Assembly (NCBI RefSeq): GCF_003667345.1
Contig: NZ_RCWF01000002.1
Coordinates: forward strand, 124,001-188,000
Origin: Poseidonibacter antarcticus
GTDB lineage: Bacteria > Campylobacterota > Campylobacteria > Campylobacterales > Arcobacteraceae
Length of the DNA stretch: 64,000 bases
Direction of reading: 5' to 3'
Of this stretch, positions 35,646 through 38,082 are shown piece after piece. The position numbers and the translations under genes were made by a program. Every line of letters begins with the position of its first letter. The stretch's first letter is position 1. The notes beneath the pieces were generated by a model. The model was not told the DNA's origin. It saw only the letters and a program-made list of their open reading frames with translations, and made no database searches.

Positions 35646-35670
35646 GTAAATTTTATAATTTACTTAGTTT
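35642..35670. terminator. Bidirectional terminator after the FKBP gene
   Basis: A perfect 11-base stem, CTAAGTAAATT (35642-35652) with AATTTACTTAG (35657-35667), a 4-base loop, and TTT after it. It overlaps the FKBP stop codon and sits between convergent genes. Confidence 0.65.
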
Positions 35671-36025
35671 AATCTTTTAGTAAAGTGACACTTTTTCTAA
35701 GAATAAATAACACAACTTTTCTAAGAAATTTGATAAAGGGATAAACTATTTTTCTAAAAAAAGTGTTATTTGCAAAATAAATCTTTCTTTTTGAAAGAGT
35801 ATTTAAAAAAATAATAGCCTGTGCTCCTTGATAAATTTTTTTATCATCAACTTTTACAATAAATCCTTGATCAATATCAAATCCCATTGATTTTAGTTTT
35901 TCTAGCTCTTTTATATTTTCTCTAGCATTTGATAAAATAAGTGTATGATTTTCTTTTATATCTAAATATTTAGAATAAAAACTACAAAATGGACACTCTT
36001 TATCATAATAGACTTCTATTTTCAT
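35669..36025 (-). CDS. DCC-family thiol-disulfide protein (DUF393)
   Basis: 118 residues with YYDKECPFCSFYSKYL at the N-terminus, the DxxCxxC motif of the DUF393 family, and a middle segment ending in AIIFLNTLSK. These are predicted thiol-disulfide oxidoreductases, function unproven. The C-terminal third is basic and hydrophobic (KIVYPFIKFLRKVVLFILRKSVTLL) and could lie on the membrane. The start overlaps the CGNR gene stop by four bases, so it is co-expressed with that regulator. Confidence 0.82.
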   Translation of the reverse strand: MKIEVYYDKECPFCSFYSKYLDIKENHTLILSNARENIKELEKLKSMGFDIDQGFIVKVDDKKIYQGAQAIIFLNTLSKRKIYFANNTFFRKIVYPFIKFLRKVVLFILRKSVTLLKD

Positions 36026-36603
36026 TTTATTAAATCTTTTTTCCTTTTAACAAAGTTACTAACTTTTGAACGATTTCCGCATATTTCCATACTACACCAA
36101 CGTCTAGAATGATTTCTTGAAGTATCAATAAAGTATAAAGAACATTTGTGATTATCACATTTTTTAAGATATTTAAACTCTTTTGAGTTCAAAAGTTTGA
36201 TAAGTTCTATTGCAATTTTTGTTAAAAGTTCATTGTATTTACTTGCATTTGGAATATATTCTAATACAAAAGAATCATTTTCATTAATAATTTGAGGGTG
36301 AACTTTTGCTTTTAAAAGTATGTTATTTGTTGTTTTTATTAACTTATCTAAAGATATTTGTTCTTTTATATAATCTTTAAAACTATTTCTTACTAATGTT
36401 CTATAATCAATTAATTCTTTAAAATATAGCTCATTCTCTTTTATATTATTTAATCTTTTTTCATCTAATAAACCTACTTTCAAAAACCAATCTTTTATAT
36501 CGCAAAAACTTTCAAAGTTCTCTACAATCTCACCATGTGGAGTAAATTGAGTATTTATAAAATCTGTAATGTAATGTTCACCTATAAGTAAAAATGATTT
36601 AAT
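36022..36603 (-). CDS. CGNR zinc-finger transcription regulator (apparent ATT start)
   Basis: About 193 residues. The C-terminal zinc finger has cysteines in CDNHKCSLYF and WCSMEICGNRSKVSNF, the CGNR signature. The N-terminal ABATE-like domain (LLIGEHYITDFINT, then FCDIKDWFLKVGLLD) is encoded in frame upstream of the first ordinary start, a TTG at 36483. The frame goes back to a stop with no ATG, GTG or TTG. The only codon correctly placed after an AAGGA site (6 bases) is ATT at 36603. So either it starts at AUU, or a base is missing near the start. It is divergent from the VOC gene and probably its regulator. Confidence 0.7.
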   Translation of the reverse strand: MKSFLLIGEHYITDFINTQFTPHGEIVENFESFCDIKDWFLKVGLLDEKRLNNIKENELYFKELIDYRTLVRNSFKDYIKEQISLDKLIKTTNNILLKAKVHPQIINENDSFVLEYIPNASKYNELLTKIAIELIKLLNSKEFKYLKKCDNHKCSLYFIDTSRNHSRRWCSMEICGNRSKVSNFVKRKKDLIK

Positions 36604-36681
36604 ATCACGTCCTTTTTATTTGGATAATAACATTTGTATTATTAATTTAAATTGATATTTATGCTAACTATTAAAAATTAC

Positions 36682-36710
36682 TTGACAGGTTAGTAAAAAG
36701 ATGCTAACAT
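36682..36710 (+). promoter_or_regulatory. Sigma-70 promoter for the VOC/PNPOx genes
   Basis: TTGACA at 36682-36687, a 17-base spacer, and TAACAT at 36705-36710. This is an unusually complete -35/-10 pair for this genome. It lies 54 bases ahead of the ATG at 36764 and is overlapped by the inverted repeat at 36688-36720. Confidence 0.75.
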
Positions 36711-36744
36711 TTTACTAACCACCTAATATAACTTTAGTGGTTAG
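36688..36744. promoter_or_regulatory. Operator cluster of GGTTAG repeats in the divergent promoter
   Basis: GGTTAGTAAAA (36688-36698) is the exact inverse of TTTTACTAACC (36710-36720), with 11 bases between. CTAACCAC (36715-36722) is the exact inverse of GTGGTTAG (36737-36744). Further GCTAAC copies occur at 36663 and 36703. The first repeat covers the promoter spacer and -10, the second the transcription start. The likely binder is the CGNR protein encoded next door, by context only. Confidence 0.65.
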
Positions 36745-36763: not shown

Positions 36764-37201
36764 ATGAAAGTTGGACACGTAGGAATAAATGTAAGTAATA
36801 TGGAAAAGTCAAAAGAGTTTTATCTGAATCTATTTGGATTTGATGTATTGTTTGAAGAAACACTAGAAGATAAAAAATATATGTTTTTAGGTAAAGATGG
36901 TGAAATAATTGTAACTTTATGGGAACAAGCAAATAAAGAATTTTCAAATTCTACAGCAGGACTTCATCATTTGGCTTTTTTAGTTGATAGTGTAGAAGAA
37001 TTAAAAGCATTTGAACAAAAATTAGATGATAATAAAATTACAAAAATATACAAAGGTATAGTATCTCATTGTGAAGGTGCAAGTTCTGGTGGTGTATTCT
37101 TTATAGACCCAGATGGTGTAAGACTTGAAGTTTGTATTGCAGATGGAATTAATGATTGTAATCCAAGTCATAGTGATCATTCATCATGTGGTTTTTTCTA
37201 G
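36764..37201 (+). CDS. VOC-superfamily protein (glyoxalase-like)
   Basis: 145 residues of the glyoxalase/bleomycin-resistance fold. It has two beta-alpha-beta units beginning KVGHVGINVSNMEKSKEFYLNLFGF and GLHHLAFLVDSVEELKAFEQ, with a C-terminal FFIDPDGVRLEVCI. Likely metal ligands are H5, H71 and a glutamate near 128. The C-terminal tail is rich in cysteine and histidine (HSDHSSCGFF). Substrate unknown. The ATG at 36764 follows AAAAGGA. It is the first gene after the operator-covered promoter and precedes the PNPOx-like gene by 11 bases. Confidence 0.88.
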   Translation: MKVGHVGINVSNMEKSKEFYLNLFGFDVLFEETLEDKKYMFLGKDGEIIVTLWEQANKEFSNSTAGLHHLAFLVDSVEELKAFEQKLDDNKITKIYKGIVSHCEGASSGGVFFIDPDGVRLEVCIADGINDCNPSHSDHSSCGFF

Positions 37202-37212
37202 AAGTATTATAA

Positions 37213-38082
37213 ATGAATACTGTATTTCATGAAGGTGAATATCATATACAAGAGATAATGGGAGTTAGGAAATCTTCTGACACATTATCTTCCATGATAA
37301 AAGATAATATTCCGCCTATTGCATCTAAGTTTTTAAAAGATTTAAACTTTTGTATAATCACAATAAGTACAAAAAAAGATGATTTATTTACATACACTGT
37401 ATATAATCATAATAATTTTATTGAAATAGTAAATCAATCACAAATATCAATAAATTTAGAAAATCATTCATATATTCCAAAAGAGTTTTACAATATAAAA
37501 AATATAAATATTGGAATGATTGGATTAAATTTTGAAAAAGCAATGCGTATTAGAATAAATGGAAAAGGAAAAATAAAGAGTAATAAACTATATCTTTCAA
37601 TAGATGAGATATATTCAAACTGTCCTAAGCATATAAAAAGAAGAGTTTTACAAGAAGATACAAAGATATTAGAGAATCAAACTATTCAAAAAGGAAGAAA
37701 ATTAAATGAAGAAATAATAAATATAATCTCAAATATTGATACTTTTTTTATAGCAACATCACATAAAGAAAAAGGTTTAGATGTTTCACATAAGGGCGGT
37801 AATAAAGGCTTTTTAAAAGTATTAGAAACAAATCAATTAGCATTTAAAGATGTCCCAGGAAATAATTTATATAATACTATTGGAAATATTTATACTAATC
37901 CAAATATAAATATATTCTTTATAGATTTTAAAAACTATGATACTTATCATATAAAAGGAATTGCTAGTATAAAAGAAATTCAAGTTGAGAATAAAAAAAG
38001 ATTGTTAATAACAATAACTTGTAAAGAAATAATCATAAATAAAAATAGTTTTAATCTAATTTATTCAGATGATTATCTATAA
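37213..38082 (+). CDS. PNPOx-like FMN-binding flavoprotein, two-domain
   Basis: 289 residues of the pyridoxamine-phosphate-oxidase-like fold. The first half (residues 1-150) has a degenerate N-terminal unit. The second half (about 165-285) has the usual split-barrel pattern: TFFIATSHKEKGLDVSHKGGNKGFLKVLETNQLAFKDVPGNNLYNTIGN. Relatives bind FMN and reduce small molecules or handle oxidative or nitrosative stress. Co-transcribed with the VOC gene. Its last 32 bases overlap the next, convergent gene. Confidence 0.82.
   Translation: MNTVFHEGEYHIQEIMGVRKSSDTLSSMIKDNIPPIASKFLKDLNFCIITISTKKDDLFTYTVYNHNNFIEIVNQSQISINLENHSYIPKEFYNIKNINIGMIGLNFEKAMRIRINGKGKIKSNKLYLSIDEIYSNCPKHIKRRVLQEDTKILENQTIQKGRKLNEEIINIISNIDTFFIATSHKEKGLDVSHKGGNKGFLKVLETNQLAFKDVPGNNLYNTIGNIYTNPNINIFFIDFKNYDTYHIKGIASIKEIQVENKKRLLITITCKEIIINKNSFNLIYSDDYL

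Follow-up and report, generated by a model that had tools for sequence, protein, structure and literature searches.

A CGNR/ABATE regulator of Poseidonibacter antarcticus that almost certainly starts at an AUU codon

Introduction

Initiation at AUU, AUA or AUC (together, AUH) has been described for few bacterial genes, mostly as single cases. In Escherichia coli, infC and pcnB have AUU starts, which are discriminated by initiation factor 3 (IF3). In Staphylococcus aureus, AUU and AUA starts give about 10% of the output of AUG in poor medium, and that of ccpN reaches up to 30% in rich medium (PMC13009471). The Streptomyces gene sigR starts at GTC and is repressed by IF3 (PMC5472188).

The gene described here, a CGNR/ABATE regulator of P. 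antarcticus, resembles ccpN (AUA, a repressor gene) and cvfC1 (AUU, the gene of a putative zinc-finger protein) of S. aureus in its conserved AUH codon and strong Shine-Dalgarno sequence, but these genes belong to unrelated families and to another phylum, and ribosome profiling and reporters served to measure their starts, whereas the start of the regulator is known by comparison only (PMC13009471). Like the gene described here, sigR encodes a transcription regulator and has a non-canonical start that is conserved, and in sigR this start limits the amount of the protein; however, its codon is GTC instead of AUH, and repression by IF3 was demonstrated for sigR and is presumed for the regulator (PMC5472188). 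The protein Jann_2411 (PDB 3h0n) has the same architecture of ABATE domain and CGNR zinc finger, but neither a non-canonical start nor an operator or target is reported for it (PMC2954205). The infC and pcnB genes of E. coli share the AUU start but do not encode transcription regulators. Judged by its sequence, the regulator is to be placed with genes of the ccpN and sigR type.

A first-pass annotation, made from the DNA letters alone, had called such a start unusual for a transcription regulator. This was partly right: AUH starts are rare, but ccpN (PMC13009471) and sigR (PMC5472188) came before, and at least three other genes of the Arcobacteraceae share the feature. A regulator with a non-canonical start thus has published precedents; the surprise is the pattern across the lineage. 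The literature searched, outside which most subscription papers lay, contained no account of AUH starts for Arcobacter-like bacteria.

Results

The regulator gene and its reading frame

The window, that is, the whole stretch of DNA analyzed (64,000 nucleotides, G000:C2:124001-188000), belongs to a genome of 2.9 Mb. The following features define the start of the regulator gene.

36022..36603, minus strand: CGNR/ABATE regulator gene, 193 codons, ATT start
36601..36603, minus strand: start codon ATT; in the five orthologues found, this position is occupied by ATA or ATT
36610..36614, minus strand: Shine-Dalgarno sequence AAGGA, separated from ATT by 6 nt; core equally spaced in 6/6 species
36616..36618, minus strand: in-frame stop TAA, upstream of the regulator start and beginning 15 bases before ATT

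When the minus strand was read directly, the frame was TAA AAA GGA CGT GAT ATT AAA TCA TTT, and both distances on which the first-pass annotation had relied, six bases from AAGGA and 15 from the stop, were found again. No ATG, GTG or TTG was present in this frame between the TAA and the conserved N-terminus. The first one in frame was a TTG at codon 41 (36483), past the conserved N-terminus, which had also been described correctly.

Membership of the CGNR/ABATE family was judged with PF11706 and PF07336 at their curated cut-offs, and both domains passed: zf-CGNR with 68 bits (cut-off 24, residues 146-188) and ABATE with 27 bits (cut-off 24.4, residues 10-139, near the N-terminus). The C-terminal half of the protein aligned with 3h0n, by sequence the sole related solved structure. 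An AlphaFold model for which five sequences were used was of low quality (mean pLDDT 57.5) and was set aside. No conserved mRNA structure was detected at the regulator start in the four species compared.

Conservation of the start codon

Orthologues were searched for in 150 relatives, in 104 genomes of the family, in 397 genomes at class and phylum level and in a collection of named genomes. Full-length orthologues were obtained from six species in all, including that of the window, a small sample in which two species are known from metagenome-assembled genomes only. The named genomes carrying them were mainly Poseidonibacter and other Arcobacteraceae. Three class-level matches (E about 1e-4 to 1e-3) were partial, contained stops and were left out of the count, and a search for the CGNR finger in the 397 genomes gave two matches above the cut-off, both in Arcobacteraceae. 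The start codon and the first in-frame canonical start of each gene were as follows.

Regulator of the window: ATT; codon 41
P. lekithochrous A1R12: ATA; codon 105
P. ostreae SJOD-M-5: ATA; codon 65
AH-541-O20: ATA; codon 41
MAG MM_PW: ATA; codon 71
G040: ATT; codon 56

AUU or AUA was thus found at the same codon in all six species and ATG in none, although it is one base away. The five orthologues were 55-62% identical in protein sequence to the regulator of the window, and dN/dS was 0.15-0.37 over the 15 pairs. Coding conservation started at codon 2, and the 6-7 nt ahead of the start codon varied; a Shine-Dalgarno core preceded codon 1 in 6/6 genes with identical spacing. Four ATG-started CGNR proteins, encoded on plasmids of other phyla, began 3-8 residues before the equivalent residue, hence the N-terminus of the regulator lies about where expected. 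The regulator shows two marks of the class of genes with IF3-discriminated AUH starts, an only plausible start that is conserved (6/6) and a well-placed Shine-Dalgarno sequence (6/6). Translation of the regulator almost certainly starts at the AUU codon, as this comparison of sequences indicates. The same reading by the first-pass annotation, which had proposed an alignment of homologues as a check and named ATG-started ones as evidence against it, was strongly supported, since the codon position was conserved, with ATA in four orthologues, ATT in one and ATG in none.

Other AUH-start genes in the Arcobacteraceae

As a control, orthologous reading frames were compared between contig G000:C2 and contig C12 of P. 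lekithochrous, with 400 kb of a third genome added. Among 166 pairs, four besides the regulator had at least 15 aligned codons ahead of any canonical start. By eye, three of these four looked like alignment run-on or a neighboring match and were rejected, so that only the regulator and a DUF234 gene had, in both genomes, a conserved stretch of convincing length ahead of the canonical start. A second screen, based on codon usage, covered 1.3 Mb and 1229 gene-like frames and gives a sampled, not a genome-wide, rate of AUH starts. Its seven matches were the regulator, the DUF234 gene, a CbiA gene, an AraC-family regulator and three weak ones; the AUH starts of the CbiA and AraC-family genes were confirmed by orthologues.

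G000:C2:189454-190335, plus strand: DUF234 (PF03008) gene, 1.45 kb past the right edge of the window
G001:C12:39712-40974 and G000:C1:125393-126652: CbiA gene, cobyrinate-synthase-like, named from sequence; ATA start in the genome of the window
G000:C2:191426-192223, minus strand: AraC-family regulator, ATA start

Orthologues of the DUF234 gene occurred in 96 of the 104 family genomes, and the 89 starts placed by alignment were ATT (31), ATC (23), ATA (17) and ATG (18), AUH amounting to 71/89. The AUH codon of this family is a start, since 18 orthologues have ATG at precisely the same position, and this was counted in favor of the AUU start of the regulator as well. In CbiA (n = 30), one codon position held ATC 7, ATA 5, ATT 2, ATG 13 and GTG 3 times (AUH 14/30), and among eight relatives of the AraC-family regulator, five had AUH (ATA, ATT, ATC) and three ATG at that codon. 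A Shine-Dalgarno core was located 6-7 nt upstream of the AUH start in 70/71 DUF234 genes. When the three control families were taken together, a core was found 4-9 nt upstream in 89/90 AUH starts, all 89 at 6-7 nt, versus 17/37 AUG or GUG orthologues (Fisher p about 3e-12, a value inflated by relatedness).

The Arcobacteraceae seem to make repeated and stable use of a start signal that is rare and weak. It is somewhat more probable than the contrary that AUU, AUA and AUC are regular, evolutionarily stable starts in this family for a modest yet not negligible number of genes, some of them regulators, paired with a Shine-Dalgarno sequence at a fixed optimal distance. At least four unrelated gene families of this one bacterial family have AUH starts, among them DUF234 in 71/89 genomes, with AUG as an alternative state at the same codon, and this alternation amounts to a natural experiment on the reasons for keeping AUH starts.

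The divergent VOC gene, its promoter and two palindromes

The regulator is flanked by the following genes and elements.

36764..37201, plus strand: VOC/glyoxalase-family gene, divergent from the regulator, normal ATG
37213..38082, plus strand: PPOX-type flavoprotein-like gene after the VOC gene, beside it in 5/6 loci
35669..36025, minus strand: DCC1-like ORF whose ATG overlaps the regulator stop (ATGA, 36022-36025)
36624..36632, minus strand: extended -10 element TGTTATTAT of the regulator promoter; TGNTATNAT in all six loci
36682..36710, plus strand: VOC promoter TTGACA-17-TAACAT; TTGACA and a spacer of 17 nt kept in 6/6
36664..36693, no strand: putative operator 1, CTAAC-N20-GTTAG, covering the VOC -35
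36715..36744, no strand: putative operator 2, CTAAC-N20-GTTAG, located where VOC transcription would begin

The VOC gene was divergent from the regulator at 6/6 loci and was present in exactly the same six of the 104 family genomes, and the gap between the two genes measured 148-172 bp across the six loci. The gene on the other side of the regulator differed at the orthologous loci, where no DCC1-like neighbor adjoined the regulator. From the position of the extended -10 element, the 5' leader of the regulator transcript would measure some 15-20 nt.

In all six loci, the putative operators were 51-52 bp apart and their half-sites kept a 25-bp register. One half-site of operator 2 was off by a base in AH-541, and some half-sites elsewhere were TTAAC or GTTAA. 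Exact matches to CTAAC-N20-GTTAG occurred twice in the genome of the window, both times in the gap between the regulator and the VOC gene, and the backward pattern, used as a control, had 0 matches in that genome. The core promoter of the regulator was free of both palindromes. The two palindromes offer a clean operator prediction, a candidate for a CGNR regulator; no report of an experimental target for the CGNR family was found in the accessible literature.

Proposed mechanism and rival explanations

According to the account proposed here, a CGNR/ABATE DNA-binding regulator would be translated from AUU, where the initiator tRNA (anticodon CAU) would pair with the first two bases only, and this weak start would become usable through the strong Shine-Dalgarno core, whose distance from it is fixed. 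The weak start would keep the regulator scarce, and a dimer of it would bind both palindromes, each of 30 bp, at the promoter of the divergent VOC operon, which would stay repressed until the regulator was released by a ligand of its ABATE domain. Dimeric binding to DNA is suggested by the structure paper (PMC2954205), and the palindromic shape of the putative sites fits it. To this account as a whole, an AUU-translated and scarce VOC repressor acting through two palindromes, we assign a probability of about 0.72. It builds on what the sequence shows, namely the start codon and its conservation, the Shine-Dalgarno spacing, the promoter-like elements, the palindromes and the co-occurrence with VOC; the low protein level, the IF3 dependence, the direction of regulation and the ligand are what we infer.

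Since the palindromes lie on the VOC -35 and start point and leave the promoter of the regulator free, repression of VOC without self-repression is suggested, and hence the level of the regulator may be determined by its weak start codon and not by autorepression. That the AUU start serves to keep the regulator scarce is probable, and precedent makes plausible the very low level that the first-pass annotation had suggested. Repression of VOC, for which the function of the operators and the direction are read from position, is a little less secure, and the start of the regulator could well depend on IF3, to a similar degree of likelihood.

The main competitor of the weak-start explanation is that the AUH start is real but purposeless, the lineage initiating fairly well on AUU, AUA or AUC wherever a Shine-Dalgarno sequence is well placed, with drift between AUG and AUH. 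The same habit in DUF234 and in the unrelated, biosynthetic CbiA, in which the three AUH codons and AUG swap across species, speaks for this, and AUH could be close to neutral for output in the Arcobacteraceae. Against it, AUG is absent from all six CGNR genes, and the tight Shine-Dalgarno spacing at AUH genes looks as if it offset a handicap; this explanation is possible but rather unlikely.

A start at the TTG of codon 41, the choice of any ORF caller limited to canonical start codons, would give a truncated regulator. This is very improbable and was rejected on the evidence of the orthologues, in which the position of such a codon varies (codons 41, 105, 65, 41, 71 and 56), the residues ahead of the TTG are conserved and include the TDF.NT region of ABATE, and the Shine-Dalgarno core sits before codon 1 in 6/6. 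An upstream start in another frame followed by a shift, to which an out-of-frame GTG 5 nt before the ATT of the window might point, has a negligible chance: that GTG is not conserved, the 45 nt upstream are free of out-of-frame ATG, GTG or TTG in both P. lekithochrous and P. ostreae, a leader of only some 15-20 nt follows from the conserved -10 element, and the orthologues contradict it, with no conserved upstream start to feed a shift. A sequencing or assembly error, be it a missing base, for which the first-pass annotation had wished to see the reads checked, or a T in place of a G, would be the default reading for a single genome but is refuted by six independent species that agree through two codons (ATA and ATT) and never show ATG.

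The initiation machinery

The first-pass annotation had compared the AUU start with autoregulation through IF3. This analogy failed, as the product of the regulator gene is a CGNR protein and infC in the genome of the window (G000:C5) starts at TTG; neither an IF3 product nor an AUH-start infC, the signs of autoregulation of the infC type, was encountered. Given this TTG start, the infC feedback loop does not apply here and the classical self-control of IF3 appears to be absent. An altered IF3 as the cause of AUH starts was rejected, the IF3 frame having 179 aa and a clear IF3_N domain. An altered initiator tRNA was likewise rejected, the initiator-like tRNA of P. lekithochrous being ordinary when inspected by eye (C1-A72 mismatch, anticodon CAT, three G-C pairs).

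Consequences for annotation

The AUH families flag genes that annotation limited to canonical start codons would truncate and, if the pattern is true for the lineage, such annotation truncates or misses AUH-start genes across the Arcobacteraceae.

As a separate observation, a frame at G000:C2:445721-446419 (plus strand), MOSC-like by eye, has an ATA just after a stop and GGAG upstream, a possible AUH start.
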